64,000 bases of DNA, taken from assembly GCA_022539475.1 (NCBI GenBank), contig VCMS01000287.1:1-64000 (forward strand). Reading direction: 5' to 3'. Made by a program: the position numbers and the translations under genes. The notes beneath the pieces are model-generated. The model searched no databases. It was not told the DNA's origin and saw only the letters and a program-made list of their open reading frames with translations. Below, in pieces: positions 1 to 60,590 of this stretch (the stretch's first letter is position 1; every line of letters begins with the position of its first letter). Source of the stretch: Gracilaria domingensis (taxonomy: Eukaryota; Rhodophyta; Florideophyceae; Gracilariales; Gracilariaceae).

Positions 1-1008
1 CTGGGACGATATGGAGGCTGAACTTTGATGAACTGCTTGTTGCAGGCAAGCCCGAGGCTGGTAAAGCCCTACCGGGAAATTTTGTTACCGGGTGTCATCG
101 GAAGAAAATGATCCGAGAACGGTGTTCACACATGAGAGACCGCGTTCTGCATCACGATCCGTGGCCAGACTTAACGAGTGGAGCCACGCCTGCTCATTCG
201 AGGTCAAAGCGACATCAGTTACCTCGTAAGGACAGTCCGATCACACCCACAAGTTGTGGTACCACACTCGCTGCAGACGAGGATCATACACCTTTCGCAT
301 TACGCAAAGTTAGGTGGCCACGCAGGTAGAAGAAAGTTGTACCTCACCTTGAGGAGAGACTTCTACTGGCCGCCATGGCGGTGGATTGTTACGCTACGGT
401 AGCTTCTGTGCCGATTGTGCGAGAATTCGCGTGAAACTCCGAAAGAATTCGAAGAAAGTGATACTATTCCTGCCAGGGTGCCGCTTGAATTTGTGGAATC
501 GATATTCTCGCACCATTGTTGACCACTCGGAGAGGCAATAAGTTCCTTCTCGTTATCACGGATCGGTTCTCGAAACAGGTTCGGACAGTACCTCTAAAGA
601 CGATCACCGCGTTCACAGTGCGCAGGCGTTCGCCACGCACTGGATCTTCGTGTACGGTCCTCCTGTGCAGTTATTATCCGATAACGGAAAGCAATTCGCA
701 TCCCGGTTCTTCCAGGATGTATGTCGCATCATGGACGTGAAGAACCTCTTCACGACCACTTACCATCCCCAATGTAATGAGCAAGTTGAACGGTACAACC
801 GTACGATGCTGGCATCTCTCCGTTCTTACGTTGCTGACCTCCCAAAAACATGGGACTTATACACCGACGCGTTAACCTTTGTGTACAACACGCAGGTACA
901 CAGGACTACTGTTGTTTCCCCATTCGAACTGGTTCTGTCACGGACACCCCCGCCATTGGCGTTAGAATCACAAGCTACTTGGACAGTTTCCCATCTGTGG
1001 GTGATTAT
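1..1008 (+). pseudogene. Element A: integrase part of Ty3/gypsy pol (left fragment)
   Basis: Fragments in successive frames give an integrase. A zinc-finger remnant around 315-375 reads HAGRRKLYLTLRRDFYWP. A piece around 520-610 carries LVITDRFSK. The catalytic core at 650-970 carries LLSDNG (second Asp) and HPQCNEQVERYN (Glu). Each change of frame is equivalent to one missing base. The gene does not end here: element B is inserted at 1008/1009 and the same reading continues at 11972. The 5' LTR, gag, protease and RT of element A lie left of the window. It is a transposon-borne integrase and not a host gene; as read it is inactive. Confidence 0.85.
1004..1008. repeat. Target site duplication of element B, left copy (ATTAT)
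   Basis: The five bases ATTAT directly before the 5' LTR recur at 11967-11971 directly after the 3' LTR. Five-base duplications are normal for Ty3/gypsy integrases. The two flanks join in frame as element A integrase. Confidence 0.85.
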
Positions 1009-1554
1009 TGTAAGATACTGTGCCGTGACGGTTGCAGTGGTGGCACTGTAAGGAAACCCGCTCGTCGGATGACATTGTTGTAGTAGATATAGTAGTAGTA
1101 GTAGTCCACGTGTATGCCGGTGGCAGCTAGTGCCCCGTGATCGGTAAGTCGTACACGTGTGGCGACGCCGGACGAGGTATTTATTTTCGCCAGCTCGGCT
1201 GTAGCCACCATGACAGTAAACCAAGGTGCTTCCTACTAGGTTCTTCGTCTTGTTTCCCGTGGCACGGATCCTAAGTCGTAGTAGGAACCCAGCTTGTCTA
1301 AGACCCGCACAGGCTGTTCTGCGGCGATATCACTACCGTTGCACCGGCTCTCTGGCTAGGCGCGTGGTACCTTTCTGGACTGCGCGTGTCTCCGTACTCG
1401 GTTTCACCACAGAGTGCCGTGGACTACTCCGCACCTTCAACGACCGTCTTTTCCGACTCGGCAGCTCACACGGCCTTACACCCCGTGTGCCGCGCATCCA
1501 CACCACCGTTCCCGGACATTCTCTTGAGTAGTCGCTCGCGCGCACTATCTCACA
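1009..1554 (+). repeat. 5' LTR of element B (546 bp)
   Basis: Starts TGTAAGATACTG and ends CTATCTCACA. It matches 11419-11966 along its length; the only difference I noticed is a 2-bp GT slip (CACGTGTGG here, CACGTGTGTGG in the 3' copy). Small ORFs inside it, such as 1226-1531, recur in the other LTR and are not genes. An AGTAGT-rich stretch lies at about 1080-1105. Confidence 0.92.
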
Positions 1555-1556
1555 AC

Positions 1557-1573
1557 TGGCTCTCCCGACTTAG
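1557..1573 (+). other. Possible primer-binding site of element B
   Basis: TGGCTCTCCCGACTTAG begins two bases after the LTR end and starts with the TGG expected opposite a tRNA CCA end. I could not assign the tRNA. Support is position and the TGG only. Confidence 0.45.
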
Positions 1574-2657
1574 AACGGTTTCTCGTGGAAGAATAGATTC
1601 GTTTTTGCCGTATCGGAAGTAAGGAGTAGCCTAAAAAGCTGCACAACCCCTCAAGTCTTCAAAGTCGAAGTCCTCTCGGCTCGACGAGCTTGCTCGTCCA
1701 AAGTCTGTTTCGGCTCGTGTGACTACCGGCAGGGCCGAATCGAACCCACCTGCGCTCTCTCTGCCGCCCCCGCGTCGAACAGTAGCCGCAGTGAGCCGCA
1801 AGGACTCGTACCACAAGTGGATAACCCGGAGCGTTTGCTCCGCCGCACCGGAGAAGCACCCCAGAACACGGAAGTTGGAAGAGGAGAACCCTGGACCAGC
1901 ACCTCGTGTGCAGACCCGTGGCCCCGAATCGGCAATTCTCCGCCCATGTTAGACGCAGCGACCGTCTCGGATTTTGCCTCCCTCCTACCCCAGTTAGAGA
2001 GGTGGTTAACGGAGGAACTCTCTAATCGTTGCCTGTTCAGGTAGACAGTGTCCTTGAACAACGGGTCCGGTCCGGTATAGAAACGCAGCTCCCTGTGATC
2101 GTGGAGACTGTGTCCACCCGTCTTCGGAATGCTTCGGTTGTAACCGATGTGGTGGTTGAAACCTGGTGGAAAGTGAAGTCGCGAACCAACTCCGCAGGCA
2201 TCGCCTACTGCCTGCTGGATCATACCCTCAACCTCCACTCGCAAGGGAATGTGGTGCAGCAACTTGGTCACCCCGACAGGGCAACTCGCGCTGAACCCTC
2301 AAGGGATGAAGTATACAATGCGGGCGGCCTCCCCGTGATGGGCAGATCGCGGTGGGCACGTCGAACGTCGGTCGAAACCCGAGGTTGGAAGGGCTCCTCA
2401 ATGAAGCAGATACCATTCGAGGCACGTCGAACCCCTTACCGGCTCGGATGGAACCCGAACTCGGATGGCCTCCTCCACAATCAGAACTTGTGCGGGGCAC
2501 GTCGAACGTCGATCCAGTTCTGGTACCGGATTCGGATGGCCTCCTCCGCATAGGGAGACTGCGCGGGGCACGCCGAACGTCATCCCGAACCCGGACAAAA
2601 AGAGCGTAACAAAAGAAGAACCGTAATAGGAAGCGTCGAGGTCGCGTCATACTCGTT
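1574..2657. other. Element B leader with repeats
   Basis: No convincing domain is visible. The most notable content is four spaced copies of a GGCACGTCGAAC-type core at about 2357, 2421, 2497 and 2567 (the last is GGCACGCCGAAC), about 65-75 bp apart. In one frame these give repeated RGTSN peptides within 2352-2609, which may be the low-complexity start of gag. Short ORFs elsewhere in the leader have no recognisable product. Confidence 0.5.
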
Positions 2658-4044
2658 ATGGAAACTCCGACTCCGATACCGACTCGGAGCATTCTGACTC
2701 TGATTCGAGTCAATCCAGTGATACGGAAGACGAATCTGATGTCTCCCGTATCCGGCGAATCAAGCCGGAACAATCGGGAGTTCGCCAAGGTCCTGAGCTT
2801 CAAGACCTACCGCTTGATGAACGGTTCCGGAAAGTACAATGCTAAAGTGGCCCGGACAGTCGCGAAGTCCGCTAAACGGATGGCATTGCAGATTCCCGAG
2901 AAGTTCAGTGGGAACGATCCGATCACGGTCCTCAAGTTTCTCAGTGCGTTTAAAACCGCATGCAACCAGAACGGCATTCATGAAGGAGCTGCAGTCTGGC
3001 TCTTTCAGTTTTTCACATCCAGCTCGGCTTTAGAGCTCGTCAAGAACCGTATCTCGGGCGAGTCAGGAGCCGTGGATTCGGATGAGGACGATGAGCTTCA
3101 ACGATCCTACCGGAGGTCGTGAACCATCTCCTGGAGACGTACGCTACTGACGAAGTCATCGCGGAAGCGTATCACGATATAACAACTTATCGGCAGAGTT
3201 CCGGAATTACGGAAAGTGAATTCTCGGACCGCTTGTGGAAGAAGAATCTCCGCTGCGGTAACATATTCACTGATTCGCGTTTGAAGGCTTTATTCGTGGA
3301 AGGTTTACTACCAGCGATCCGCGCTTCGGTCCGCAATCATTCTGCAACACACCCGAAGATCGGATTCAGGCAGTTGGTACTATTTGCAGAAGGTCTAGGA
3401 GATACTCACCGTGGCGGAAAGAAGGTTCATTCCACGATCGAGAAAGCCCGTGACGCACGCAAGTCGCGTACGCGAGCTCTCCTTACCGAAACGGATACTA
3501 GTACGGAGTCCGGAGTAGTAGAAGACCAGGCTGGAGAAGGCCCTAGCAGTGTTGCCCTCGCCGAGCGTCTCCTTCCCGTCGATACCAGCGACAAGTACCG
3601 CTTCACCTTCCCCAGATGGGTCAGAGCACGATGCCTTCAACACCGTACTCGGCATACCAAACCCCTCGACAATCCTTTGACCCGAACCGGAACCCAGCAT
3701 GTCGTTTATGCTTGTCAACTACCCGCCCTTGCTGCGAGTGGATGCCTGCCGAAGTCCGGAACAAGTTGCTCCAGCAACGTGAGCAAATTACACCCATCGG
3801 GTTGATGAAGGTTATTTCCGCCGTCGGATGCCATTTACTGGAGGCCAGGGACGTCGACCCGGTAATGTCGGTAGCCAGGGAAGTCGCGCCGACAATAGCG
3901 CTCCGATCCCCGGAAGTTCTCAACCAGCCAATAGAAGTCCCCGCCGTTCGGCCTTTATCCTGGAGGAGGAAGAACCACATCATCCTGAAGAGGAGGAAAA
4001 CGCTCAGCAGGACGCGTAGAGGCGCCGCGCCCTGTCAAGGATGA
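2658..4044 (+). pseudogene. Element B gag (frameshifted)
   Basis: The part at about 2840-3090 reads as a retrotransposon gag capsid region (IPEKFSGNDPITVLKFLSAF). It continues in another frame from 3119 (NHLLETYATDEVIAEAYHDI, then SDRLWKKNLRCGNIF). The switch near 3100-3119 is equivalent to one missing base. A third piece at 3616-4044 is low-complexity with a few Cys (ACRLCL) but no clean CCHC knuckle; it ends in an acidic stretch read in the 3828-4019 frame. Gag would form the particle that packages the element RNA. As read it cannot be made in one piece. Confidence 0.7.
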
Positions 4045-4099
4045 CAGCCTCAATGGAGGTCCAGCCGTTGACGGAAAGCCGTTGCGGAGAAGGACTCCA

Positions 4100-4380
4100 T
4101 CATGAAGTGTTGAACTTGTTCTGGACACAGGAGCATCCCCAAACCTGGTACACACCCGCGCTTTACCGCCCGGATGGGAGTCTCAGTTATTACCGATCAA
4201 GGCTCCCCGTGTATCGGATTGCGTCCAACCGTTCGATGAATATTCTCGGCGTAATACCCCTGGATATCCGACTCGGTAACTTGAAGGTACGGATCCGGTT
4301 TCTTGTATCTTCCAACCTGGCAGTGGACTGTATCCTGGGCAGCAATTCTTTATAGATCGATACATCACAGCGATCTACCC
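4100..4380 (+). pseudogene. Element B aspartic protease remnant
   Basis: The retropepsin active-site signature LDTGAS is encoded at 4121-4138. A matching downstream part (VDCILGSN) is in a different frame near 4320-4350, so at least one indel lies between them. The role would be cleavage of gag-pol. Between here and RT the sequence is scrambled. Confidence 0.65.
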
Positions 4381-4835
4381 CGGGGAAGCGGAAATTTCTT
4401 CTACAACTGCACCCACGCCGTGCCCTTCTTGACGCACAAAATTGTTCTCGAGATGGGTAAGGCGCATCCCCGCTCGCATCCCAGACACACGGCAATCACA
4501 GGAAGCTTCGTGTCGCTCGCTCCATCAATGCTCCCTCCTATGTCTGGAGACGGCCTGTCTTGGTTCAACCGTATACAAGTGGAATGGTTTACTTACAGAA
4601 CGAGATTCAAACCGTTCGCTCGGAACTTGGCAACTACTGGGCAAATTGGAGTGATGGAAAAGTTCCTTCGCCGAACCGGCGCATTCCATGTATTGGGTGG
4701 CCACATGAGCGACCGACCACAACTCTATCGAAAAACACCGTAGTCGGCGCGAAGCTGCAAGACCAGGCCGCCGCTGCTCTTTTCTCCATCACCAAAACCC
4801 CACTAGCACACAAGTCGACGAGGACGTCGACAGCC

Positions 4836-4848
4836 CTAAGAAGGGGGT
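4836..4848 (+). other. Polypurine-tract-like copy upstream of RT
   Basis: CTAAGAAGGGGGT, the same motif as the 3' polypurine tract at 11404-11417 but with five G instead of six. It lies between the protease and RT regions. It may be chance or another plus-strand priming site. Confidence 0.4.
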
Positions 4849-4969
4849 ACAAAAGACGAGATTGAGTCACCGGAAGCGGACTGGACATCGACAGTGCACA
4901 TCGGTGAAGAGTACGAGCCGCCACAGCGATAACGATGCATTCAGCTGCTTTCCGAGTACGCCTGATATG

Positions 4970-5650
4970 TGGGACGCGACACTTGGGAACAATGGGCGCA
5001 AAACATCGGATTGAACTAGATCGCTGATGCCGTCCAGTGGCACCAAGCCGCTCCTACCGATCCGGTCAGAAGGCCCGAGAATGGGAGAAGGAGGCAAATC
5101 ACAAGATGTTGAGGGAAGGAGTAATTGAACCGCTGTCGTGCCAGAGGGTGGGCTCACCCCCGTCGTCATCGCCTTGAAGAAGGATTGGCTTCCTGCGGCT
5201 TTCTGCATCGATTACAGAAAGCTTCAACGCCGTCACAGTTCGCTCGACTCCCTTACCCGATACCTCCCAGTTCGCCCTTGTTTTATTTTGCTTCATAAAG
5301 ACGTATGGACTGAATGCTATTGATTCACTGCGGCGACTAGACGCTACCGAGTGTTGTTCGCCTACCCTTGACGGCCAAACCAGGGACGGACACTTGGGAA
5401 GCAATCGTGGCGCAAATACACTGCGGATTGAATCGATCTGATGCACGTCCAGTGCAACCAAGCCCCTAGCCGATCCGGTCAGAAGGCCGAGAATGGGAGG
5501 AGGAGCAAAATCACCAAAGATTGAGGGGAAGGAGTAATTGAACCTGGGCCGTCAGCATGGTGTCGTCGACTCTTACCCCCCGATATCCGACGGATGGATG
5601 AATGCATTGATTCACTGGGAGACGCAAGAGTGTTCTCTACCCTTGACGCC
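4970..5650 (+). repeat. Imperfect tandem duplication over the RT start
   Basis: A stretch around 4980-5125 recurs at about 5390-5536: for example TCCGGTCAGAAGGC at 5061 and 5474, an offset of 413. A later stretch around 5245-5375 recurs in shorter form at about 5567-5650. The first copy holds the beginning of RT (FCIDYRKL near 5200) and the second lacks it. This rearrangement removes the N-terminal RT fingers from the long ORF that follows, so element B RT is probably not functional. Confidence 0.6.
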
Positions 5651-8611
5651 AACTCGGGTATTGGCAAGTGGAAATAGACAAGCCGATAGGGACAAAACTA
5701 CTTTCACCTCCCACGTGGGTCTCTACCGCTTTATTCGGATGCCATTTGGTTTGAAGAACGCCCCTGCGACGTTTCAAAGAGCTATAGATGTCATCCTGAA
5801 TAAGGTTCGTTGGCAATTTGCTATCGTGTATCTCGACGATGTCATAATCTACTCGAGCTCCGTCACGGATCATTACCGACACCTAGCTAAGGTACTTGAT
5901 CTACTCCGAGAAGCCGGAATAACACTGAAGTTGAAGAAGTGCTTCTTCTTCCAGTCAGCAGTTGATTACCTGGGACATGTGATCCGACCCGGGAAGCTTC
6001 AAGTGGCGTCGAAGACTTGTGACGCTGTGACAAAAGCTAAACCACCACGGACACAGACCGAGCTCCGGGCGTTCCTAGGTCTCTCCAATGTCTACAGACG
6101 CTTCGTGCCGAACTTTGCAAGGATCGCCCACCCGCTGAACCGGAAGCTTGAGAAGGACCAACCTGTCGACCTCGAACCGTTTTCGGAAGAAGATATGGAG
6201 GCGTTCGAAGAACTGAAGAAGAGGCTCACCTCCTCTCCAATTCTATCTTTACCGAAACCCGGAAAGCCCTACATCTTGGAGACGGACGCCTGTGACCGTC
6301 AAGTCGGATGTACTCTGCTACAGCAGCAAGAAGATGAGAAAGACTACCGCCCAATCGGATACTGGAGCCGTTCGTTAACCGCGCTGGAAAGGAACTACAG
6401 CACCTCTGAGCGACACTGCCTGGCCATCGTATGGAGCATGCTACTTCTAAGGCCATACCTGGAAGGACAACGTTTTGTAGTTCGAACGGATCACAACGCT
6501 TTGCGCTGGCTCCTCAATATAACCGACGCTACGGGAAGACTCGCGAGGTGGCGTCTACGCCTCGCAGAGTTTGACTTTGAGGTACACTACCGACCCGGCA
6601 TAAAACATCTTCCTGCCGACGCAGTGTCACGGATGCCGACCGACGGAAATGATGAGACGCCTTTGGAGGATGAAATCCCATGCCTGTTCATAGAAGAGAT
6701 GGAGACCGACACGGACTATGTTGTGGCAGATATCCTCGTTAACGGAGAAGTCATCAAGGACGCGCTGATCAACTGGCCAACAACCACCGATGACGGTGAG
6801 CCCTTGCATGTATTCACAACCGTCCCGGAGCAACCTGACGTCACTCCGATAACGGTTGAAGAGTTCATTGCCGCCCAGGCGAGGGACCCTTTCTGCAAAG
6901 CTAAGGCCGAATCCGTCGGAGATCCTAAGTCCAGTTTGACTACAACCGTCCCGGGATACTGTGCAGAATATCACCGATCGACGGAGCAGTACAGAGAGTC
7001 GTACCGGAGTCCCTACGGGAAAGAGTTCTTGAACTCGCTCATTTCCAACGCTTGGCTGGACACCCCGGTGCAATCAAGATGTACTACACCCTACGTCGGG
7101 ATTTCTACTGGCCACTCATGTCGCAGCATGTATTTGAGACCGTCTCTCGGTGTGAACCGTGTCGAGCCGTTCGCGGAACTCATTTCAGGAACCAAAAATA
7201 CTTGAAGTTGTTCCCGGCAACGGGTCCCTTCGAGTTTGTGGCCATGGACATACTCGGACCATTGCCGAAAACCGGACGCGAGAAGAGATACATATTGGTG
7301 ATAACGGACCGCTTTACTAAGCTCACTCGAGCCATACCGCTGTCGGACACGAAGGCCGCTGATATCGCTATCGCGTTCCTCGAGAATTGGGTCTACCCTT
7401 ACGGGATTCCTACTTACCTCCTCACCGACAATGGCCCGCAGTTCGTCGCCAAGTACTTCGAGTCGCTCTCTGCTGATCTCGGTATTACGCACGCTCTCAC
7501 GACGGCATATCATCCGCAGACAAACGGGCAGGCCGAAAGGTTCAATAAGGTTTTGGTGAACCGCTTGCGGCATTACGTAGCAGAGCACCAGAAGGACTGG
7601 GATAAGTTGGTCCAGCCGTTGGTGTACGGGTACAACCTGCAGGTTCACCGCTCAACCGGATTCACTCCCTTCGACCTCTCTCTTACGCGGCACCCTCCCG
7701 GGATCGTGCTCGACGAGCCTACGTCAGCTCTCCCGCAAACGGCATCTCTCCACCCGACAACGGCTGAGACCCGTCGCGTAACACGGGCCCGAATATCGGA
7801 ACTAATCAAGCTAGCCTACACCAAATTAGGCAAAGCGCAGGAGCGCTACAAAGCGTCCTTTGATTCCCGGATACGGTACACTCCAACCTTTAAGGAAGGG
7901 GATATGGTTTACTTGGACGCTCCGCCTCGGAAGAAGAATTCAACTGAGTACGAGGATATCGTCAAGAAACTGCTGCCGGCTTCGGAAGGTCCGTATAAGG
8001 TCGTTCGTGTTACCGACACTACTGTCACACTGGATATTGACGGGTTACACGATATTGTTAGTATTGACCGAGTGACGGCGGCGCCCGCTCCTGTTTCCGA
8101 GGAGAGCGCAACCCCCGCCCCCGTCACCGATTCTAGTTCCGAATCGGCCACCCCTCCTATTTCCGAAGAGAGGGAAAATATGGCTGATAAAACCAATAAT
8201 GGAAGAGCCGCTACGGAACCGAACGCTCGCCCAGAAGCGCCGCACTCGGAGGCCACGCCTGCACAGCCGCTGGAAGAACCCGCTCCGGTTGAAGACAGTA
8301 CCTCCGATACGCCGCTCGCTGCACACGCGACTCCGCCTACATCTCAGCCGACCACGGCTTCTACTCACCCAGAGACGGAAAAAGAATGGGTCGTGGAGAA
8401 GGTCACCGGCCACGGTACAGCCGAAGACGGTGAGGAGCTCGTAGGAGTGAAGTGGTACGGTTTCAAGAAGTCTACGTGGGAACCGAGGCGCAACATTCCA
8501 CACAAGTTTGTAGAACGGTACTTCCGACGAACGGCTCGCGAGGACGCATCGCAACCTAAGAAGGGGGGTACGAAACGCCAAACACGGAAGCAAAGAATCC
8601 TGAAACGGTAG
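5538..8611 (+). pseudogene. Element B pol: RT, RNase H, integrase, chromodomain
   Basis: Two overlapping frames, 5538-7205 and 7052-8611. RT has IVYLDDVIIYSSS (catalytic DD) near 5830. RNase H follows, with ETDACDRQVGCTLL near 6275 and RTDHNALRWLL near 6485, ending at LPADAVSRM. The integrase zinc region (HPGAIKMYYTLRRDFYWP, then CEPCRAVRG) starts near 7055. Its core has DILGPLP, LLTDNGPQF and NGQAERFN, the D,D,E triad. The C-terminus has a Ser/Pro/Glu-rich linker and a chromodomain (VGVKWYGFKKSTWEPRRNI) at about 8430-8530, expected to bind modified histone and guide insertion. The frame change near 7050 equals one lost base. The N-terminal RT part is disrupted by the duplication just upstream. 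Confidence 0.88.
8556..8569 (+). promoter_or_regulatory. Internal copy of the polypurine tract (possible central PPT or recombination scar)
   Basis: CTAAGAAGGGGGGT here is identical over 14 bases to the true 3' polypurine tract at 11404-11417. It lies inside the last codons of pol. A central PPT inside pol primes a second plus-strand start in HIV and Ty1. Alternatively it marks where an ancestral 3' end was, before the antisense module was added. Confidence 0.5.
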
Positions 8612-9334
8612 TCCGCCTCCAACATTCCAGAAGCGTTTCTCCGAATCCCGGCATTGGAAATCGACAACAGCTGGCGCGGGTTACTATTGTGCTCACCATC
8701 ACATTCATGAAGCACAGAATGTAACAACAACATTGAGAAACAACCCGTATATCGGAACAGATTGAGAAAAAAGCAACCCGGACAGCTTTACAGCAATGTG
8801 CTCAACGCGAGGCACACACGGGGGCGCCCAGCATGGACGCGGCACACGCGGTGGCGCAAAGCAAGGACGCGATGCACGCGGCGGCTCCCAGCAAGGACGC
8901 GTCACGCCACGGAGAGCGACAGTACCATGCGCGCATGCTCTCTAGGCCCGTATACAGCAGGGAGCGCCTGGAAGCGCCAGAGGCTACTTGCAAGGATAAT
9001 CAAAATATTTATTGGGGAAATTACCCCTCCGCAAACGGTCAAAAACGGCGATTACTTGTTTGCCCGATATCTCGGAAACGAAGCCGTTTCAGAGGCTGAA
9101 AACACGCGATTTGCGCTCCTGGCGCGCTCAAAATACTTAGGATTTTTTGAGTGCCAGCGCGCGCGCCCTACGCGTATTACTGGCAACCGATTCGGCTACT
9201 AAGCGCACAATGGATGCATCTCAGTACGGCATTCTTCGAAAAATCAATCGTTTATTTCGTGTACATCGCTGTGCATTGCTTTGCGCAATGCAACCAAATT
9301 TGATCACGCAGTCGAGCTTGAGGTCCAGAAACAG
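8612..9334. other. Element B spacer between pol and the antisense ORF
   Basis: No coding region is recognisable. It holds three 30-bp tandem units (8811-8900). It also has an AT-rich patch near 9000-9015, which would lie just beyond the 3' end of the antisense ORF and could supply transcript-end signals for it. Confidence 0.5.
8811..8900. repeat. Three 30-bp tandem repeats
   Basis: Units 8811-8840, 8841-8870 and 8871-8900 share the pattern G[GA][CT][AG]CAC[AG]CG..GGCG/CT then AGCA[TA]GGACGC. They are GC-rich and diverged from each other by several bases. Confidence 0.8.
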
Positions 9335-11304
9335 CTACGATGGCGGAACGTCCTTCGCTTCCGGTATTGGAGACTGCGGTGGCGTGACCGTTGGGTACAA
9401 AGCAAGTTCTGGTTTGAGTGCTTCGCCCGTCCATGGCGCCAATCGAAACGTATCTGTCACATCCTCAATGAGGCTTGCTTGCGCCCCTTGGAGGATACCA
9501 TCCATCGCGTTGCACATGTCGTTGTGGACATCTATCGCACGCCTTGCAAACCGGTCACGGAACTCGCTGAACTGGCTCGCGTACTCTCGCAATCGAGATG
9601 CGCTCCCAGCCCATTCTTTGGCCCGTTGGAGAGCCTGTACCGCACTATTGGATCGCGGCAAACCGAGCCTCTCGCACTCATCATTCAGCGACTGCAGCGC
9701 AGTGGCAACAGCCGCATCGGTCTCATCTTCATCCGCTGTCTCGGGCTTGTTTGTGTGAGGAAGCTGTAGACTCGAAGGCTGCCCATTCTTGTCGGCTCCT
9801 GCTGCGACTTGCGTCCTTTGAGCTTCATTTTCTGGAGCTTCGATGTTCGGACTTGAAACTGGAACTGCAGTTTGAACGTCCTCCGTATTGCCTTCCAAAA
9901 CGGATTCTTTCGGGAAGACCTGCGCAGCCGCAGTTATGACCGGATCAGAATCAAGCAGCACTGAGCGAAGAACAGGACCGAGGTGCCCACCAGGTAGTGA
10001 CTCCTTTACGAACCCTGCCGCCCTCGGAAAGTATAGTTGAACGCTCTTCCTAGGAGCATCCATCCATTCCGCCTCGGGAAGGTACGGAGGGTTGTGCAAG
10101 TACTCTTTCCCATCATCTCGCATCGCAGGATGTCGAGGGATGTCCGGAAAACTGTCGGAGTCGTAATCATACCAAAGAAAGCCCGGTCTTGGAGTCCTGT
10201 CCCAATCGATCTGACAGACGTAGTCAAGGAGAGAATCCGCTTCGGAAGCCTTGAACTCCGTTCCTCGAACAATGTTTTGAACCCCGACGTCACGGATTAA
10301 ACGCACTAGCTCAGGTGGGAGGCGAAAGAGACGCCCTGCGGGGCAATTCAAATCACGATCGTGATCAAGTCTCCAGTCGCTAAACTTGAGCTGCATGCGC
10401 ATACCGTATCGGGCGGCAAAAAGAAAGCTCAGGAATGCCAAGACGATCCACTCCGCGTTCAGTACCTGCCACGCAAGGGTGGCAAGGCGGTTCTCGGTCA
10501 GTAACAACGCGGAAAAGTAGGAGATGATTGGTGGCGTCGGCACGCAGAGATACCGGCTCACCGCGAAGACACCCGATTCCGGAATTGTGACATAACGACC
10601 TTGGCGCAAAGGGCGAAGCAGATCATGGAATTCTTGGTTGTGCCAAGAGAAGAAGAAGCCATGGCCGTCCCGGATGCGAGCTTCGGTGCTAACGTCATCG
10701 CCCCAGTGGTCTCGATTCGAGAAGAAGTATATCTCATCGAACGGCGGTGTCCACGCTACCAAGCCGTGGATGTTATGACCAGGAGGAGGGAAGTGTCCTA
10801 CGGCAACCGAAACGGAGGGATCTCCAAACTGAGCGCGAAGCAGGAGTAGTATCGCGACCAGGCGGCTTTGGTTTTCTCGCTCCGGCAGACAACGGACCCA
10901 TGGCATATCCGTTGGAAGACCAGGATCCAGGCGGACACCGATGTCGGATGAAGAGGATTAACTCGCATGTGGGCCCACCGCGCTTTCCAGGCACCATCAC
11001 GGAGGCGTTTGTTGCTGGAGAAGTACCCCCTTTCGGGATTCGATGGTATTGCTGCAAACCGCTGAGCGTCGAAGAATTCCCCGCCAAGGGATACATAATG
11101 ATTAACCGAGTACGGTAGTGCCACTGAGCGCGCGCCAACTCGGTTGCGGTTGCCTAAGCGTCGATGCTCAAACTCCGTATCCGGACTTACCCATTGGTTA
11201 CCAATCTGAGGCATAGCTGTGAGGAACCGTTGCGGAGGAGGAGACAGGATTTGTTTAGAAAAGCAAGAGCTGGCGGCACCGGAAGTCGGAAGTTTTATGA
11301 GCAA
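9335..11304 (-). pseudogene. Element B antisense ORF: uncharacterised retrotransposon accessory protein
   Basis: Read against pol, a 523-codon frame (10906 to 9335) is preceded by 11304-10798 in another frame; the switch near 10900 equals one missing base. Joined length would be about 656 residues. No known domain is recognised. The middle holds WVRC, then SRLVAILLLL, FFFSWHNQEF and YLCVPTPPIISYF. The C-terminal half is acidic, Ser/Pro-rich, with a predicted helical stretch (ECERLGLPRSNSAVQAL and on). The ORF at 62768-64000 aligns with the N-terminal half (FIRC.., RRLVDIL, MFLFHNVEY, WLEVPTPPVLAYF), so it is conserved as protein between elements. It lies between pol and the 3' LTR, the place where some plant Tat-type elements also carry antisense ORFs. 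Function unknown. Confidence 0.72.
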
Positions 11305-11403
11305 AAAAAAACAAGGCGAACTGGGTGGGGCACTGTATGATGTAGATCCCGAAATCGGGTTTAGCGTTTTTGAGGGAATCGTTGTCCGAGGACGGACAAC
11401 AAG

Positions 11404-11418
11404 CTAAGAAGGGGGGTC
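11404..11418 (+). promoter_or_regulatory. 3' polypurine tract of element B
   Basis: CTAAGAAGGGGGGTC ends exactly where the 3' LTR begins (TG at 11419). It serves as plus-strand DNA primer in LTR elements. Confidence 0.85.
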
Positions 11419-11966
11419 TGTAAGATACTGTGCCGTGACGGTTGCAGTGGTGGCACTGTAAGGAAACCCGCTCGTCGGATGACATTGTTGTAGTAGATAT
11501 AGTAGTAGTAGTAGTCCACGTGTATGCCGGTGGCAGCTAGTGCCCCGTGATCGGTAAGTCGTACACGTGTGTGGCGACGCCGGACGAGGTATTTATTTTC
11601 GCCAGCTCGGCTGTAGCCACCATGACAGTAAACCAAGGTGCTTCCTACTAGGTTCTTCGTCTTGTTTCCCGTGGCACGGATCCTAAGTCGTAGTAGGAAC
11701 CCAGCTTGTCTAAGACCCGCACAGGCTGTTCTGCGGCGATATCACTACCGTTGCACCGGCTCTCTGGCTAGGCGCGTGGTACCTTTCTGGACTGCGCGTG
11801 TCTCCGTACTCGGTTTCACCACAGAGTGCCGTGGACTACTCCGCACCTTCAACGACCGTCTTTTCCGACTCGGCAGCTCACACGGCCTTACACCCCGTGT
11901 GCCGCGCATCCACACCACCGTTCCCGGACATTCTCTTGAGTAGTCGCTCGCGCGCACTATCTCACA
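11419..11966 (+). repeat. 3' LTR of element B (548 bp)
   Basis: Near-identical to 1009-1554. It begins TGTAAGATACTG, ends CTATCTCACA, and is followed by the ATTAT target duplication at 11967-11971. An ORF that starts inside this LTR at 11798 and runs into element A is an artefact of the nested insertion. Confidence 0.92.
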
Positions 11967-13741
11967 ATTATCGCCAACAATGGAAGGATTCGCTAACGAA
12001 GTTAGTACCGGCCGCCCGGAAATCAATGGCAAAAGCCCAAGCCGCTTACAAGCGTGATTTTGATGCTCGATTGCGAGGAAGAACCCCTGAACCACTTACT
12101 GTGGGCAATCATGTCTTCGTACGTAAGGAACACTACAACCCTGAGAAGGGCAAACGTCATAAGCTCTCGCTTGTGGCGGATGGACCTTATAAGGTAATCT
12201 CGGTCGCCCCGGAAACGGTGGTGGTCGAGATCGCTGACGCGCATAAGCGGATCTCCCGCGACCTCGTGGTATTGGCCCCTCCACCCTCGTCTGAGGTTAC
12301 CCCGTCTGGTACAGAGCCCGTGTCTACGGAGTCAAAAACGCCGGTAACACCGGAAACAAATGTGGTGACAAAACCCTCCGTCCTGCCTCACCCCCATCGA
12401 GGCCTTACAGACCTCCCGATAGAGTCGGCCCCGACGACTGCGTTGGAAAACGTTCGCCAATATTGCACCCCCGTTTCTGTTCCATCGCTGGGTTCACCTC
12501 CTCGCGATGCTGGACATTCAAGTACTCCCCACGTCGCTCCATCCAAGGAGGGGAAGGAGGTTGTCAGCCCTGCTGATAGTTCTTCGCCGACGTCGCGTCG
12601 TGAGGATAACCGTGACGCACGGACTGTACGGAACTCTCCGGATGTTCCCGCCTGTGGGCGGGCTTCGAGTCCGAAAAGCACGCTCGCTCGTCAGACACAC
12701 AGACCCGTTACCGGAAAGTCTACACCGTCGCCGGGTAAGAAGACTCACGCAGAACCGGATTCGGTTAAGTCAACAAAGCCTCGTGGCTTAACAGCCGCGG
12801 TGGGCGAAGCGAAGTCGAAGGACGCCATCGCCACCCAGCCGACGTCGGAACGAAGCTCCACTGAGGAAAGCGCAGCGACATCGCGAGCCACCGCGCATCG
12901 CGATGCAGAACAACCAGGAAGTCTGGGAAATCCTGCGGAGCAGGCGCGAGCTGAAGGAAGAGAAGCCCCGAGTGACTCAGTGGAAACCGGCAGTACAGCC
13001 GTGAGAATACCGGACACTGCGGGAAGAGTTCACGTCATGGACGGTACAGCACCAAACACTGGGCATGAAATATCGGCGCAAGTGCAGCCGCGTGCGGAGA
13101 TCGCGAGATCGGAAGCCGCCGGCGGTCCCGATAATCCCGGTAACTTGGAAGTAACCGTTCAGAACGGAAATTGGAGCAAAGAAGCTCAAAGGCTTACGGC
13201 GCAGCCGTTGGAGAACACCTGTAACAGGGAGGCGGCTCTCTCGATGGAGCTTGAAAGCCAACCGTCGCTACAATCACGTGTATTCACGGTTATAAAGCCA
13301 CCCGAGGTGGAGCCTCCCGCCGCAAGCGGTGAGCACGCAGCTCCGCCAACACCCCCGAAGCGGAAGGACCCAGGCCGCCTGGCGGTACGCAGCGACATTT
13401 CGAACGCTCCTCCACGGAGGAAACTCGCCACGCAGAGCCAGACGCGCGCTGTTACCACCGGCACGGTAACCGTTCCCCCGCAAAGGTTGTCAGCCGATGA
13501 AGTAACCATAACACGGCAAGGCCGGCAGGTGTACGTTCAAGAGTACATCTTAGACCGAATTATCGGGCACTCCTGGGACCAGAAGGGCATTTTACAATAC
13601 CACGTCCGTTGGTACGGCTTTGGCCCATCGTGGGATACTGACGAACCAATCGAGCACCTACCGCGCTCAAAAGTGGTACAGTATCACAGCAACGCGGGAA
13701 CGGCCACACCAGCGACGCTGGAAAACGCCCAAGTGGGATAA
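11967..13741 (+). pseudogene. Element A: integrase C-terminus and chromodomain (right fragment)
   Basis: Continues element A pol after the insertion. The first part (QQWKDSLTKLVPAARKSMAK, then VGNHVFVRKEHYN and VADGPYKVISV) is the C-terminal integrase DNA-binding region. A linker of roughly 400 residues follows (about 12280-13490), rich in Ser, Thr, Pro and Glu and probably disordered. The end is a chromodomain at about 13530-13690 (YILDRIIGHSWDQKG, VRWYGFGPSWDTDEPIEHLP). The linker is several times longer than the corresponding one in element B. The fragment is open but cut off from the rest of pol by element B. Confidence 0.85.
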
Positions 13742-22671: not shown

Positions 22672-23237
22672 TTTCTGAGGTAGAAGACTGCTTTTATCTT
22701 ACATATGGTACTAAAAAGTGTTTGCAAGATATCTTCGCACTACAACGTGCATTTTACAATCTGTTTTCAGCATTTTGCAGCTAAGAATAGGAGCTACAAC
22801 TTTGATTTTCAGATCGGAAACAAAGTTTAGGATGTAAATTGGCCATATCTCCGTTTGCTCCAAAAAGCCATCTCGTATAATTGAAATGGAATGGAACACA
22901 ATTTGGCAAACTCGTAGAACGCCCCTTAGTCCTTACCCAAATTGTGATTTTAAGAGTTACTCAGTAAAAGAGGGTTTGCAAGATGTTTGATTCGTGGACC
23001 CTGGGAAATAGCAAGCAAGGAAGCAGAGGCTTTGCTTATTTTTTCGCTCCCCTACTCTCGTTTTGCCTTTTGCCATCGGTCTTCGCCTAGCGCCTGCTAC
23101 GAACACGCCATGCAGCAGTCCGCTTTAGATTGTTCGAATTTTATGAACCTGTTTCGAACAACCGAGGGCTTTTTGTCATGTTCGGTAGCCCTCGTCACGC
23201 TTTTTTCGTTCTGAATTGTAGGCCGCGAAGCGGCGTA
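22672..23237. other. Spacer, nothing recognised
   Basis: No gene-like reading or repeat that I can support, apart from an imperfect palindrome at about 23216-23241 (TTGTAGGCCGC / GCGGCGTACAA) into whose right arm the copia element inserted. Confidence 0.5.
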
Positions 23238-23242
23238 CAATT

Positions 23243-23416
23243 TGAAAGAAGGAAAGATCGATGGCCGCCCTGCCGGCAGTCGCCGGCGGGCAAGCCCTTT
23301 ATTTGGGGTTGCTACGTGGCCACTCGATGGGCGTGATGACTTCGTGAGAACAGCTGTTGGCTTGGGGGCGACCGGCGCTTATCTGGCATGAGCGCATCGA
23401 TCGATGCGTGATAACA
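23243..23416 (-). repeat. Copia 3' LTR (174 bp)
   Basis: Shares AAGATCGATGGC..GCCCTGCCGGCAGT and GGGCAAGCCCTTTATTTGGG with the right copy. It holds an extra 75 bp between two GCGTGAT motifs. Confidence 0.82.
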
Positions 23417-23442
23417 CACCCCCTGATGAGCGCGGGTCGTCG

Positions 23443-26400
23443 TCAGCGCTTGTGGATATGTCGCAGCGGCCGAAGGTTGAGTAATTGCACGTTGCGCTCA
23501 AACTGCTGCGGCCGTAGGGGCTTCGTCATGATGTCAGAGCGTTGTCTAGCGGACGGTACGTGCTCCGGCTTGATGTTTCGATTTCGGATATGATGACGCA
23601 GAAAATGGTGCCTGAGATCCAAATATTTGCGTCGCTTTGTCGAGCCTTGCTGAAGTGCAGCGCCTATGGCTGACTGGTTGTCCATTTTCAATGGGGTCGG
23701 TATCGATAAGGCAAAGCCGAGGAATCCCAGAATTCTTCGGAACATGACCGCGTCGCGTGTAGCAGCGGTAGCGGCGTAGTACTCCGCTTCGCACGTAGAG
23801 AGTGCTGGAACGGATTGCTTGCGGGAGGACCAATCTATCAGATTTTCATTCAAGAAGTGGGTAGCTCCTGATGTGGAACATCGCGTTTGTGTGTCTGCGG
23901 CGAAGTCGGCGTCGGAGTACGATGTAAGGTTTGTGATGGGGACACTGCGTGGGTAGTGCAGCCCGTGGGTGGCTGTGGCTTTTAGGTATCGCCCTACTGA
24001 TTTGATATGTTTCCAATGGCGTTCAGTTGGGTTTGTTAGGGCCAGCGCCAGTTTTGAGGTGACAAATGCGATGTCGGGCCGCGTACAATCTGACAGCCAC
24101 CTGAGACAACCAACCACCTGTGCGTATAGACTTTTCGACTTCGATGAGGGTGTGTCATTGGCGTCGGGAGGGTGATATCCCACGCCGGATGTGTACGGGG
24201 TGCGTTTTCCATTAGCCTTTTCTAGGCCAAGCAGTGTTAATATTTGTTGCACCGTGTAGGGTTGCGATATGGAGATGGCGCCGTTGTGGTCTTTGGTGAT
24301 TTTCCATCCGAGATATTGGGTAGGCGTGCCCAATCGTTTGATCGCATATTTTTGCTGGAGTCGTGAGAAGAGGTTATCTATTCTGTGTTTGTTGGTGGCG
24401 GCGATGATGAAGTCGTCTATGTTTAGCACGACGATTGTGTACTGGTCTGCGTCGGTGCGATTGACAAAGAGTGCTGGATCATCGGGGGATTGATGGAAGC
24501 CGAGAGATTGTAGGTATTTCCATGCTTCTTCCAGGTAGTAATGTCCGGCTGGAGGGGTCCCATAGAGATTGAGTATCAGCTGAACTCCTGGTTCTTGATG
24601 AGTGTAGGAGCCGTCAAATTTCGGATGTTGTCTGACGTATACAGGACTCGTATGTTGGTACTTCTCGTGCGTGAAGGCTGGTGTTATATCGAAGTGTTCG
24701 AGTTCCAGTCCGTGTTGTGCAGCGAGTGCGAATATCAGCCGAACTGTGGCTTTCTGTGAGAGGTGTGCAGCGGTTTCTTCTGGATTAAAGTCCTTGTGGG
24801 GTATCATTTTGTCCCCGCGGACGGAGCATCTGACCTTGCGGCTCATGATGTCTCCTTCTGGTGTGCGTTTGTATTTGTAAGTCATGGTGAGTGGGATAAG
24901 TCTCTTTGGTAGCTGTGCTTTCGGCAGCCACTTAATGGATTTGAGCTTATCGAGCTTTGAGAGTTCTGCGTTGTGTGCTATTGCCCATTCGTTGGCGTCG
25001 GGGTACTTGTTTGCCTGCTTTCGGCTTGTTGGTGCTGGAGTGGTGTGTGTGATTGTTCCTGGCGTTGGGTGCGGGATATGGTTCTTAAAAGCGGTCGACA
25101 TTGATGCCACGGGGTCTTTGGAACGGTAATATGGGTGGAAGTCTCGTGTCGGAATTTGTATGTATCGTCCTGTGCCGAGGGCCATAACTACGACGTTTTG
25201 AGGGGTGACACCGTACATATATCTGCATGGTATTCCTCTGCTGTCCAACTTAGACTGTAGCTGGATACTGGTGGGGAGGAGGGCATACCCGAGTTGTCCG
25301 AAGGCGTGTAGTGCGTGTGGCTTGGCCGGCGAGCCGAAGATGGCTTCGTGGGGCGTTCTGCCAGTGGACGAGTGTGGGGTTAGGTTGTACTTGAAGGCAG
25401 TGTCACGGATTGCGTCTTCCCAATGTTCATCGCCAAGCCCACTATGTATGAGGTTGGCTCTCGCAACTGAGCATAGTGTTTGATTGATACGCTCAGCGAT
25501 ACCATTTTGTTGTGGTGTGTATGCTGTGGATGTAACTTGGCTTGTGCCGTGTGCGGAAAGTATTTGCTGGAGCGCTTTGCTCAAATATTCTTTGGCGTTA
25601 TCAGAGAGGAATATGGTGGGAGACGTTCCGGTGGCGTTGTTGAAGAATCGCAGGGCGAATGCGAGGACTTTGGAAAGTCCCTGTCGATTTTTGCTGAAGT
25701 GGAGGAGTAAGTATCGGCTGTAGAGTTCGAGAAACGTGACGAAGAAGCGGTTGTGGTGTGTTGAAGTGTGTGATATGGGGCCACAGATGTCAGATGTGAT
25801 TACTTTGCCGAGAGGGTACTGGTGTGTCGTTTTTCGGTGCGGTTGGCGCTTGAGGCGCCCTTGTTTGCACCCGCTACATGTGATTTTGCGATTGCCGACG
25901 TGGCGGAGTCGTGGTTCGGGGATGATGTGGAGTGTGGCTAGTCTTGCGAGTTTGGAGGGTGGGGCGTGATTATATATCAGGTGCCATTCGTGTAGTTCAG
26001 GGTCTGACAGGTGTTCTTGTGCTGATGGTGCGGTGATAAGCGCCAGGGGCCGAGGACGAAATGATCGCTTGGAGCGGTGGGTCGGGGGGTTTGTGGCACG
26101 TCTTGTTTGGCGGCTGGGCAGTGGAGCTGGGAGAGGGGCTGGTTTTTTGCTATGGAGCAGAAACCGGGTTTCGGAGCTTTCGGATCTGGTGTTTTTGGCG
26201 GTGCTTGAAGTGGGTCGAAGGTTGAGAGTGTAGGTGTTATTATTCCAGGATGCGGTGCCAAGCACTTTTATTGGTATCGTGCGACTTAGAATGTATGCAG
26301 TATGGGGGGTGAATATAACGGGGCCGATATGTCGCGTGATCGCGTGAACAGAGATGAGGTTTCCATTGACGTTTTGGTTGATCAGTGTGGGTATATTGAT

Positions 26401-26562
26401 TGAGACTCCCTCGTCACTGATCATTCGAAGAGTGCCCCTCTTCGTTGTCCGTAGGGGTGTGGATGAGGCAGTGTGGGTTAGGATGGGGGTGTCAAGGTCA
26501 GTTTTGTCTTTGGTTCCGTGGGAAACAATGCTTGGATGGGCCCCAGAGTCCAAAGCGTACAC
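23443..26562 (-). CDS. Copia pol: protease, integrase, reverse transcriptase, RNase H
   Basis: 1039 residues without a break. The protease site (LDSGAHPSIV) is at the start. Integrase has a zinc finger remnant (CSGCKQGRLKRQPH) and core motifs TSDICGPI, FLSDNAKEY and QQNGIAERINQT. RT has FDITPAFTHEK and the catalytic pair as NIDDFIIA, where copia elements usually have YVDD. RNase H shows SYSDADFAAD, STCEAEYYA and a C-terminal LDLRHHFLRHH. The frame begins by a -1 step from gag around 26560, which could be programmed frameshifting or a lost base. Gag upstream carries stops, so the copy cannot move alone. Confidence 0.88.
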   Translation of the reverse strand: MYALDSGAHPSIVSHGTKDKTDLDTPILTHTASSTPLRTTKRGTLRMISDEGVSINIPTLINQNVNGNLISVHAITRHIGPVIFTPHTAYILSRTIPIKVLGTASWNNNTYTLNLRPTSSTAKNTRSESSETRFLLHSKKPAPLPAPLPSRQTRRATNPPTHRSKRSFRPRPLALITAPSAQEHLSDPELHEWHLIYNHAPPSKLARLATLHIIPEPRLRHVGNRKITCSGCKQGRLKRQPHRKTTHQYPLGKVITSDICGPISHTSTHHNRFFVTFLELYSRYLLLHFSKNRQGLSKVLAFALRFFNNATGTSPTIFLSDNAKEYLSKALQQILSAHGTSQVTSTAYTPQQNGIAERINQTLCSVARANLIHSGLGDEHWEDAIRDTAFKYNLTPHSSTGRTPHEAIFGSPAKPHALHAFGQLGYALLPTSIQLQSKLDSRGIPCRYMYGVTPQNVVVMALGTGRYIQIPTRDFHPYYRSKDPVASMSTAFKNHIPHPTPGTITHTTPAPTSRKQANKYPDANEWAIAHNAELSKLDKLKSIKWLPKAQLPKRLIPLTMTYKYKRTPEGDIMSRKVRCSVRGDKMIPHKDFNPEETAAHLSQKATVRLIFALAAQHGLELEHFDITPAFTHEKYQHTSPVYVRQHPKFDGSYTHQEPGVQLILNLYGTPPAGHYYLEEAWKYLQSLGFHQSPDDPALFVNRTDADQYTIVVLNIDDFIIAATNKHRIDNLFSRLQQKYAIKRLGTPTQYLGWKITKDHNGAISISQPYTVQQILTLLGLEKANGKRTPYTSGVGYHPPDANDTPSSKSKSLYAQVVGCLRWLSDCTRPDIAFVTSKLALALTNPTERHWKHIKSVGRYLKATATHGLHYPRSVPITNLTSYSDADFAADTQTRCSTSGATHFLNENLIDWSSRKQSVPALSTCEAEYYAATAATRDAVMFRRILGFLGFALSIPTPLKMDNQSAIGAALQQGSTKRRKYLDLRHHFLRHHIRNRNIKPEHVPSARQRSDIMTKPLRPQQFERNVQLLNLRPLRHIHKR

Positions 26563-27460
26563 TGTGGTGTGTCTTGCGTGTCCGTGTCAGGGAGTGATTC
26601 GAGCGCTTTCATGGCCTGGACAATTTCGGCGGCTATCTCGTCATCTGCTGCAGATGCCTGTTTCGCGTTAGAGCGAGTTCGCGTGTTGCGTGGCCGTTGT
26701 GGTTTGATGTCGTCAATCTTTTTCGTGAGTTCAAGAATGGCGTTGCGGAGGCTGCGTGTGCTAGACCCGCCGTAGCGTCCACGACCCCGACCGCGTCCTT
26801 CTCTGTAAACGTGGCCGCCTGTTCGGTTCTTGGAGGATGTGGGTCGTGTGGCGGATATGTCGATTGGAACCTGTTGGGACAGTAAAGCTTCGTACTGCTC
26901 GAGGCCGTGTTGGGTCTCACGTATGGTCAGTGGTGGGTTGTCAATCATCATGGATATTGCGCGCTGGGAAACCCTTTCATCTGATACAAGACCCTGTAAA
27001 ATGAAGGTCACGGTCATCTTTTCATCCGATATACCCGGCATTTGTGCAACAATTTGTTTGCGCCGTATAGCAATATGTTGAGTGATGTACTCGGAGATTG
27101 TGCCAGTCCTTCGACGATTCGTGGCTTCGAGTGATAGGCTGTAGAAATCTTTGGTGGACTGGGAGTCTAGGGTGTTTTTGACAGTTTGTACAATTCGCGC
27201 CGATGACGCCGTGAAGATTGTAGGGTTGGCAATCATTTTGGTGACTTCCTGCGTGATACTTTTTGTAATTATGCGGCGGAGGCTGGCAATTGCTTTAAGC
27301 TGTTCTGGGGTTTAAGGCTGGAAGTTCTGGTCGATGAGATTTGTGTAGTCGTGTTTGGTGAGGATATCCTGCAAGTTTTGCCACCACTAAAAGTAATTTT
27401 CCGGTGTGAGTTCAATAAGCCCTTCTGTGAATTGCCACGCAGGGTGGGATTGTGCACCAA
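26478..27460 (-). pseudogene. Copia gag with two stop codons
   Basis: The open part (27236-26478, 252 codons) reads as a copia gag/UBN2-type domain (ISEYITQHIAIRRKQIVAQM, then MTVTFILQGL) followed by an Arg/Gly stretch (EGRGRGRGRYGG). No CCHC knuckle is seen. Upstream in the same frame the protein continues (WWQNLQDILTKHDYTNLIDQ, TPEQLKAIASLRRIITKS) but is stopped by TAG at 27387-27389 and TAA at 27312-27314. The TAG sits where a Trp codon would fit. Confidence 0.72.
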
Positions 27461-27705
27461 AAGGTTGCGGAGTGGAGGAAAATTCTATTTTCGTATTGTG
27501 AGTAGTGTAACCAATCTCTTGTTGCGCCTGTCTCCAGAGATTGAGCCAGATTTCTCGAGTTTGGCGGTAGTGAAAGCGTTTCTATCGCGTTGTGAGCGTG
27601 GAGAGTTAGGAGCAATGCTCTGGTTGCACGGGAGCATTGCTCACACCGTGGATCGAGTTGTGGCTTGTTGGGGTGTGGCGCGGTGGCGCGGAGGTGCCCA
27701 TGACC

Positions 27706-27804
27706 TGAGAGAAGGAAAGATCGATGGCTGCCCTGCCGGCAGTCACCGGCGGGCAAGCCCTTTATTTGGGGTTGCTACGTGGCCACTCGATGGGCGTGAT
27801 AACA
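27706..27804 (-). repeat. Copia 5' LTR (99 bp)
   Basis: Near-identical to parts of 23243-23416 but lacking 75 bp. Followed by the CAATT target duplication at 27805-27809. Confidence 0.8.
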
Positions 27805-59931: not shown

Positions 59932-60590
59932 TAGGGCCAGCACGATGCCGGGTGTAATTCGCGGTGGCTCTGATGTCAGCGTGCAGTCAGAAGTGAATGT
60001 GAAGAATTGGCGTAGGTATCCGGTTGTTTTGGTGAGTCACAGCTAGTGTAGATATCAAGCCTAACGATAAAGGGCAACAGGGGATCAGCAAATGAGGCGC
60101 ACTGCGGAGCACTGACTGGTGATAAACGAGAATAAGTCTCGAGACTAGTGGGCAAAAAACCTGTATAACAGGGCACAAAAACGAGAGCTGTATGACCGAA
60201 AAAGTAACAAAGAAACAACAAGAGATGCCGTAACAACGGTCTAGAACTTCTCAGTGGTTAACATCGGATGCCAAGCCCGGACTTGTGGCATGTTGCTTAA
60301 TTAGGGACGAAAACCGTTCAAAAGCCGCATAAAAAGTCAGAGCCAGAAGCGTCTTTGAGGTTTACTTCCCGTACAGTGGCGGCAAGTGCCGCCATCTATA
60401 TAGGGCACTTGAAAATATCAGCTAAAAGTTTCTAACTGTAGAGCAAAACCTCTTTTTCGGAGAAAGCCTCTAAAAGCGCTTCATAACTACTAGATCCGTT
60501 CCGACGGTAACAACCTCGGTTATCAGTATCGGTAGGGAGGATTGGCCCATTTTGGGAGCCTACCGGAGAAGGGTATAGTTTCTAGACACG
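59932..60590. other. Spacer before the right-hand LTR
   Basis: No gene recognised. Minus ORFs at 59976-60236 and 59987-60178 overlap and have no motif. Probably the transposon's right flank. Confidence 0.4.

Follow-up and report, generated by a model that had tools for sequence, protein, structure and literature searches.

An antisense accessory gene between pol and the 3' LTR in Ty3-type elements of the red alga Gracilaria domingensis

Antisense open reading frames located between pol and the 3' LTR (aORF-3R) have been described in the plant elements Retand, Grande (gene23), RIRE2 and PvRetro13 and in the fungal element Boty (PMC7264820), whose antisense frame occurs in Botrytis and Sclerotinia (PMC7264820, PMC11963269). 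These accounts give the job of the plant and fungal frames as unknown, report those of plants from most copies of their families and mention a proposed nuclear regulatory role (PMC7264820, PMC11963269). Retand is assigned to a non-chromovirus lineage, and its antisense protein carries TRP28 (PF04195; PMC11963269). In HTLV, HBZ and APH-2 stem from an antisense gene; the protein is described as nuclear (PMC11963269) and the antisense promoter as lying within the 3' LTR (PMC7264820).

Here we analyze a 64,000-nucleotide stretch of contig VCMS01000287.1 of G. domingensis (the window), together with related copies elsewhere in the genome. The antisense frame (aORF) found in it proves to be a genuine accessory gene that belongs to a family of Ty3-type LTR elements, at least some of them of the chromodomain type. 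The aORF-3R class is defined by position and does not constitute one protein family. The red algal gene shares its properties: it lies between pol and the 3' LTR in reverse orientation to gag-pol, occurs in most copies (82 of 120 scored integrase hits, absences existing) and is conserved under selection. The preliminary description of this DNA had proposed an undescribed system, a view that is not supported, the position class having been described in plants and fungi (PMC7264820, PMC11963269). Novelty lies instead in the protein family and in the exchange of the block that encodes it. Among the papers listed by searches of the open-licence PMC literature, no title or abstract opening describes an antisense gene of this sort in a red alga.

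Elements and antisense frames of the window

The window contains a complete, young Ty3-type LTR element (element B, 1009-11966; Table 1), whose two LTRs differ solely by one 2-bp indel and have copies across the genome. The element displays RT, RNase H and integrase in the order of chromodomain Ty3 elements, together with a chromodomain, LTRs and a target duplication. This class assignment holds for part of the elements, the pol frames of the second element in the window having no recognised chromodomain, and LTR pairs were verified in two subfamilies. The Chromo model (PF00385) scored 22.3 bits in the window copy, below the cut-off of 25.1, and 38.6 bits, above it, in a relative (L034). Element B was inserted into another Ty3 element (A), the chromodomain end of which lies within frame 11714-13741. 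The gag region is putative: no Pfam gag model matched the gag of these elements, and the name derives from position and from reading of the sequence, which in relatives also reveals a capsid-like stretch. The gag proteins of relatives L032, L033 and L034, from three subfamilies, carry CX2CX6C(X)C where a CCHC zinc knuckle would be expected.

Table 1. Positions of element features along the window
Feature	Position	Strand	Remarks
Integrase portion of a different Ty3 element (A)	250-970	+	Host site of the element B insertion
Left target-site duplication, ATTAT	1004-1008	.	Directly before the 5' LTR
5' LTR, element B	1009-1554	+	546 bp, TG...CA
Putative primer-binding site, TGGCTCTCCCGAC...	1557-1576	+	2 nt past the 5' LTR; read from the sequence; TGG primer-like
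gag region (putative), element B	2655-4019	+	Broken into frames (2658-3122, 3119-3805, onward)
pol, element B	5538-8611	+	RT, RNase H, integrase (H2C2 and core); chromodomain, below cut-off in this copy, towards the end
Antisense accessory frame, main part	9338-10957	-	540 codons; bulk of the conserved core plus helical region and C-terminus
Antisense accessory frame, N-terminal part	10801-11403	-	Different reading frame
Polypurine tract, GAAGGGGGGTC	11404-11418	+	Adjoins the 3' LTR; within the leader of the antisense gene
3' LTR, element B	11419-11966	+	548 bp
Right target-site duplication, ATTAT	11967-11971		5 bp; directly after the 3' LTR
3' LTR, second element	61539-62109	-	91% to the LTR that occurs as a pair in copy C4; right end set by reading the sequence
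Antisense accessory frame, second element	62687-64000	+	Start codon 62768; within a 941-codon ORF; continues past the window

The structure of element B bears out that an antisense frame lies between its pol and 3' LTR. The interval 9335-11304 is not, as first thought, a single ORF but part of two overlapping antisense frames. Jointly these match one 688-codon open frame in a copy on contig C204; the window copy has thus been broken once, near 10.95 kb, and this despite its near-identical LTRs. The conserved start codon is at 11212-11214, in a context (MPQ.G..W) common to two aORF types, and the distance from start codon to 3' LTR is 0.2 and 0.66 kb in the two window elements. The non-coding stretch 8801-9205, where pol and the antisense gene converge, is conserved at 92% from one aORF type to the other, the flanking 100-base bins being 41-58% identical; in C223 it is 86% identical. 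It may represent a shared 3' end of pol and the antisense gene.

The second antisense frame adjoins an LTR, as the preliminary description had it: the LTR matches at 91% the LTR of this subfamily that occurs as a pair in copy C4 (576 bp, 99.8% identical). RT and integrase of the second element are encoded on the opposite (minus) strand, past the window end. That the two window frames are real and related was also correct. Their proteins (P0001 and P0002, the latter truncated by the window end) are 29% identical over 140 aa (E 6e-10), and intermediates confirm the relationship. The roughly 220 residues originally aligned exceed the BLASTP alignment but are a fair figure, the core shared through intermediates extending over about 280-330 residues. 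An 821-bp repeat at 60503-61323, beside the LTR of the second element, was rejected as that LTR, which begins at 61539; the repeat is distinct from it, has sharp ends and recurs on many contigs at 71-95% identity.

The remainder of the window holds a Ty1/copia-type element (RVT_2 and integrase, minus strand; 23224-27803) between 117-base direct repeats at 89%, and a host gene island (30107-51554) with ZW10-like, BK-type potassium channel, chondroitin GalNAc-transferase-like, Nup133/155-like, WD40 and Ist1 genes, inside which a DDE_Tnp_4 transposase is located (48738-50030).

Conservation and coding status of the antisense gene

Genome searches with four aORF members returned at least 87, 99, 73 and 60 matches, with 80 of 585, 96 of 691, 57 of 380 and 59 of 336 candidates scored. 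Many copies are open over 600-940 codons (674-688 in copies of the window type and up to about 940 in relatives). Starting from integrase, with 120 hits scored among 2456 candidates and aORFs sought within 7 kb, the 82 hits with an aORF had it 764-2972 bases downstream on the opposite strand; in none of the 120 was a same-strand aORF the sole one downstream. The upstream flank, which served as control, had an opposite-strand aORF once in 120 and a same-strand aORF never. Gene order was identical in all four elements read closely beyond that of the window (L031, which includes the window end, L032, L033 and L034). Matches to phycobilisome linkers on eight contigs besides C680, two of which (C104 and C142) also carry the elements, support a red algal host.

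An aORF match was missing in 38 of the 120 integrase hits, some of which may be misses given that part of the aORF candidates was scored. In all three of these loci that were inspected, one of them shortened by a contig end, a profile of 12 proteins found no aORF within the 3.0-4.5 kb of sequence that follows downstream. Two of the three (L054 and L055) have 3.4 kb in common at 83%; about 2.7 kb of this is past pol, and neither has a frame of 250 codons or more in it. The inspected loci indicate that the gene was lost from, or never present in, some lineages; consequently, it is not required in cis by every lineage.

The aORF protein has about 600-940 residues and begins with a variable N-terminal part, to which are joined a conserved core (about 300 residues), a helical stretch and, in some subfamilies, an arginine-glycine tail. 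DxxR, HxxE, VxxP, EW and GxxxxxxGT are invariant across the 12 proteins compared. A KR-rich basic motif occurs in nine of them, inside the core in seven, the exceptions being the three proteins of the second subfamily. Six have an RG tail (7-10 RG within the last 60 residues), and the other six, including the window type, do not. The pI of the whole protein is 5.5-6.6 in nine of the 12.

As the preliminary description had supposed, no known family matches the core. Pfam gave no credible match to the 12 proteins (six families, one member each, E 0.071-0.29), and PhoR, at a Pfam E of 0.033 and then 0.22, was rejected as an identity because its matches fell below the cut-off or concerned a single member. 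PHROG yielded no match under E 0.11, those at E 0.11-0.48 (one member each) being rejected, and matches in PDB were weak (best E 0.019) and confined to the helical C-terminal part. No DNA- or RNA-binding domain was recognised in Pfam, PDB or PHROG. Scans of IMG/VR and of 84,980 prokaryote genomes, which begin from short peptide patterns that distant relatives can escape, produced 71 and 150 pattern matches and no relative by tblastn. AlphaFold2 models of the two window proteins (pLDDT 34, pTM 0.22) were not usable.

The location between pol and the 3' LTR would suit a structural or cell-to-cell protein, envelope-like or a second particle protein, and one hydrophobic segment, the strongest of the protein (19-residue average 1.49-1.81), is conserved in 11 of the 12 proteins. 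However, this borderline internal segment surrounds the invariant Glu-Trp, none of the 12 proteins has an N-terminal signal-like stretch (best 15-residue average at most 1.05), the gene is antisense, and a gag read from the sequence is present in sense orientation. We consequently regard a structural role as very unlikely.

Selection was measured by Nei-Gojobori counts on intact frames, dN/dS being taken from a sample of pairs. Between lineages, dN/dS of the aORF was 0.15-0.32 (dS 0.12-0.22); it was 0.43 in two pairs with dS near 0.09 and 0.6-1.3 in very recent pairs, where high values are expected after insertion and lend purifying selection no support. Pooled pN/pS, from pairs with dS 0.08-0.25 in two subfamilies, was 0.279 in one (37 pairs, 12 copies) and 0.242 in the other (15 pairs, 7 copies). 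Partitioned accordingly, it was 0.113 and 0.110 in the core, 0.373 and 0.334 before it, and 0.347 and 0.267 after it. The five other frames of the same DNA contain 11-36 stops per copy (11-33 on the sense strand over the aORF), and in four of them pN/pS exceeds 1.1. The remaining one, a sense-strand frame ('rev1'), has pN/pS of 0.349 and 0.333 and was rejected as coding; it contains 23-33 stops per copy, and its low values are taken to reflect overlapping third positions. The aORF is coding, and its core is under purifying selection.

These values, far below 1 and not neutral, and the many further homologues found in LTR elements agree with the initial view that the frames are coding. They also bear on the proposal that an antisense RNA regulates gag-pol, the frame being incidental. 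The convergent gene order does permit antisense overlap, but frames open over 600-940 codons, a core pN/pS of 0.11 in two subfamilies and residues that stay invariant despite 22-50% core identity between groups all oppose it. Codon-level selection refutes a non-coding role as the whole explanation, which we hold to be practically negligible; the RNA may still have an added role.

A tree of 24 integrases resolved five well supported groups, each of which includes elements bearing the aORF. The preliminary reading as an accessory protein is thereby supported, and the protein is common to several element lineages. The aORF tree of 11 matched elements, in which three broken copies are represented by their longest piece, recovered the integrase groups (Mantel r 0.87, with 1 in 10000 permutations as high). 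Identity between groups was 22-50% for the aORF core and 53-63% for integrase. The occurrence in all five groups and the matching trees suggest that the gene probably predates the split of the groups, if a very early exchange from one group to another is left aside. A host gene captured and carried along by chance is another conceivable origin, but the presence in five groups with a matching tree and the selection among element copies make it highly improbable.

Exchange of the antisense block

Among the matches listed, 19 integrase hits, window included, were at least 98% identical to that of the window. The window aORF type (92% identity or more) accompanied eight of these backbones, and another type, 59-60% identical to that of the window, accompanied five (C37, C48, C152, C198 and C514). 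Of the remaining six, four had frames with several stops and two had no aORF hit, one of these lying at a contig end. Both types are open and amplified. The five elements with the other type match the window at 99% over RT stretches and at 95% in their LTRs, except for one LTR of C152 at 99%; over gag stretches, identity is 99% in C37, C48 and C198, 94% in C514 and 92% in C152. Between the two types, the first 180 bases of the LTR are 92-94% identical and its middle 99-100%.

The boundaries of the block were visible when the window was compared with C514 in bins of 100 bases. Identity was 98-100% at 6345-7700, 90-95% up to 8100, mixed (41-94%) up to 9200, 39-73% over the aORF (9201-11400), and again 92-100% up to 11900 in the LTR, the last bin, past the LTR end, being at 81%. 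C204, used as control, remained at 97-100% to the window from 6345 until the alignment of its piece ended near 11800. Synonymous differences tell the same history: C204 and C514 are 98% identical in integrase (pS 0.055) and 54% identical in aORF (pS 0.745), and C132 and C21 have pS of 0.301 and 0.727, respectively. No such gap separates C4 from the second element of the window, with pS of 0.213 in integrase and 0.149 in aORF. Furthermore, the aORF of C514 is closer to that of C135 (64%) than to that of C204 (54%), the order being reversed in integrase (92% and 98%). Over the exchanged stretch C37 and C48 are 99.4-99.9% identical to C514, and the same arrangement on three contigs makes an assembly chimera unlikely. 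The synonymous differences of integrase versus aORF settle the matter of block exchange: judged by sequence comparison, recombination has swapped the aORF block between elements. The route was perhaps template switching between co-packaged RNAs.

We claim two aORF types. Apparent further types (44-45% and 66-68%) on 98-99% integrase backbones (C18:349193, C131, C124 and C253) were read as broken copies; their frames contain several stops, and the DNA of C18:349193, the one of the four covered by DNA comparison, is 96% identical to the window type. In C152, the LTRs around one element (121882-122436 and 131846-132396) are of two types, 95% and 99% identical to that of the window. Plain retrotransposition would not give such a mixed pair, which points to recombination between DNA copies or to assembly error.

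A separate mosaic is present in the window copy itself. Its segment 4117-5264 is about 91% identical to most copies among the matches listed (96% to C420), flanks being at 98-99%, and the adjoining 300 or so bases (5265-5562) are absent from all other matches; by these identities the two are a second mosaic and an insertion. This second mosaic makes it possible that recombination in these elements may be common anyway.

Possible roles of the antisense protein and comparison with known systems

The preliminary description offered silencing escape, packaging or target choice as conceivable jobs. The likeliest job for the aORF protein, with a probability of about 0.4, would be that of a nucleic-acid-associated regulator of its own element. 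A promoter in the 3' LTR or leader would drive the antisense gene separately from gag-pol. Its protein would act in the nucleus on the nucleic acid of the element and regulate or protect transcription or genomic RNA, a role also suggested for the antisense proteins of plant elements and HTLV. The KR-rich motifs and RG tails favour this reading; against it stand their absence from part of the proteins, the pI of 5.5-6.6 in nine of the 12, the failure to recognise a binding domain and the integrase hits with no aORF. Exchange of the block would then let an element switch its type of regulator while the engine stays. Divergence is greater in the aORF protein and at the beginning of the LTR than in the engine, and the types are swapped; both fit a specificity directed to the element itself or to the host.

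Such specificity can be pictured in several ways. VANC proteins of VANDAL DNA elements reportedly remove host silencing, and an aORF protein could similarly bind repeats or LTRs belonging to its family and lift silencing. The protein's much greater divergence than that of integrase and the more diverged first 180 LTR bases that accompany type exchange (92-94% versus 99-100%) speak for this possibility, and the likeness to VANC extends to an accessory protein of a mobile element that diverges fast and possibly targets itself. VANDALs, however, are DNA transposons, and the core of the aORF protein is under strong purifying selection. We consider anti-silencing unlikely.

Alternatively, the protein could limit or license copies of the same type, exchanged types escaping cross-control, in the manner in which Ty1 is said to control its copy number. 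Two deeply different types on otherwise near-identical elements (8 and 5 of the 19 backbones) would be consistent with this, but exchange alone could be a by-product of recombination, the window having another mosaic in gag-pol (4117-5264), and we rate such control as quite unlikely. Of similarly low probability is the more specific conjecture that the antisense gene would be a type-specificity cassette, whose protein would recognise its own LTR, leader or genomic RNA and control or license those copies, cassettes being swapped so that relatives or the host lose their hold on the element, in the way that plasmids switch incompatibility type. Elements that are almost identical except for the aORF block constitute a natural experiment with two types on one backbone, through which the job of the gene could be approached from what each type does.

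Among known systems, the closest counterparts include those of plants. The red algal aORF occupies the same place in the same orientation as the antisense frames described for Retand, Grande and RIRE2. It is unlike Retand in that some of its elements have a chromodomain, the pol of Retand being described as non-chromoviral. Furthermore, PF04195, the TRP28 family of Retand, matched none of the 12 red algal proteins at E up to 10; that it gave no match across the whole genome carries no weight, the control genomes being equally silent. Grande, RIRE2 and Boty are likened here by position and orientation, from published descriptions rather than from sequences. HBZ and APH-2 resemble the red algal aORF as antisense genes, a likeness of arrangement in which the red algal promoter would have its equivalent in that reported for HTLV. 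Overall, the finding at this position of a protein that shows no recognisable kinship with TRP28 suggests that such an arrangement had more than one origin and benefits the elements that carry it.
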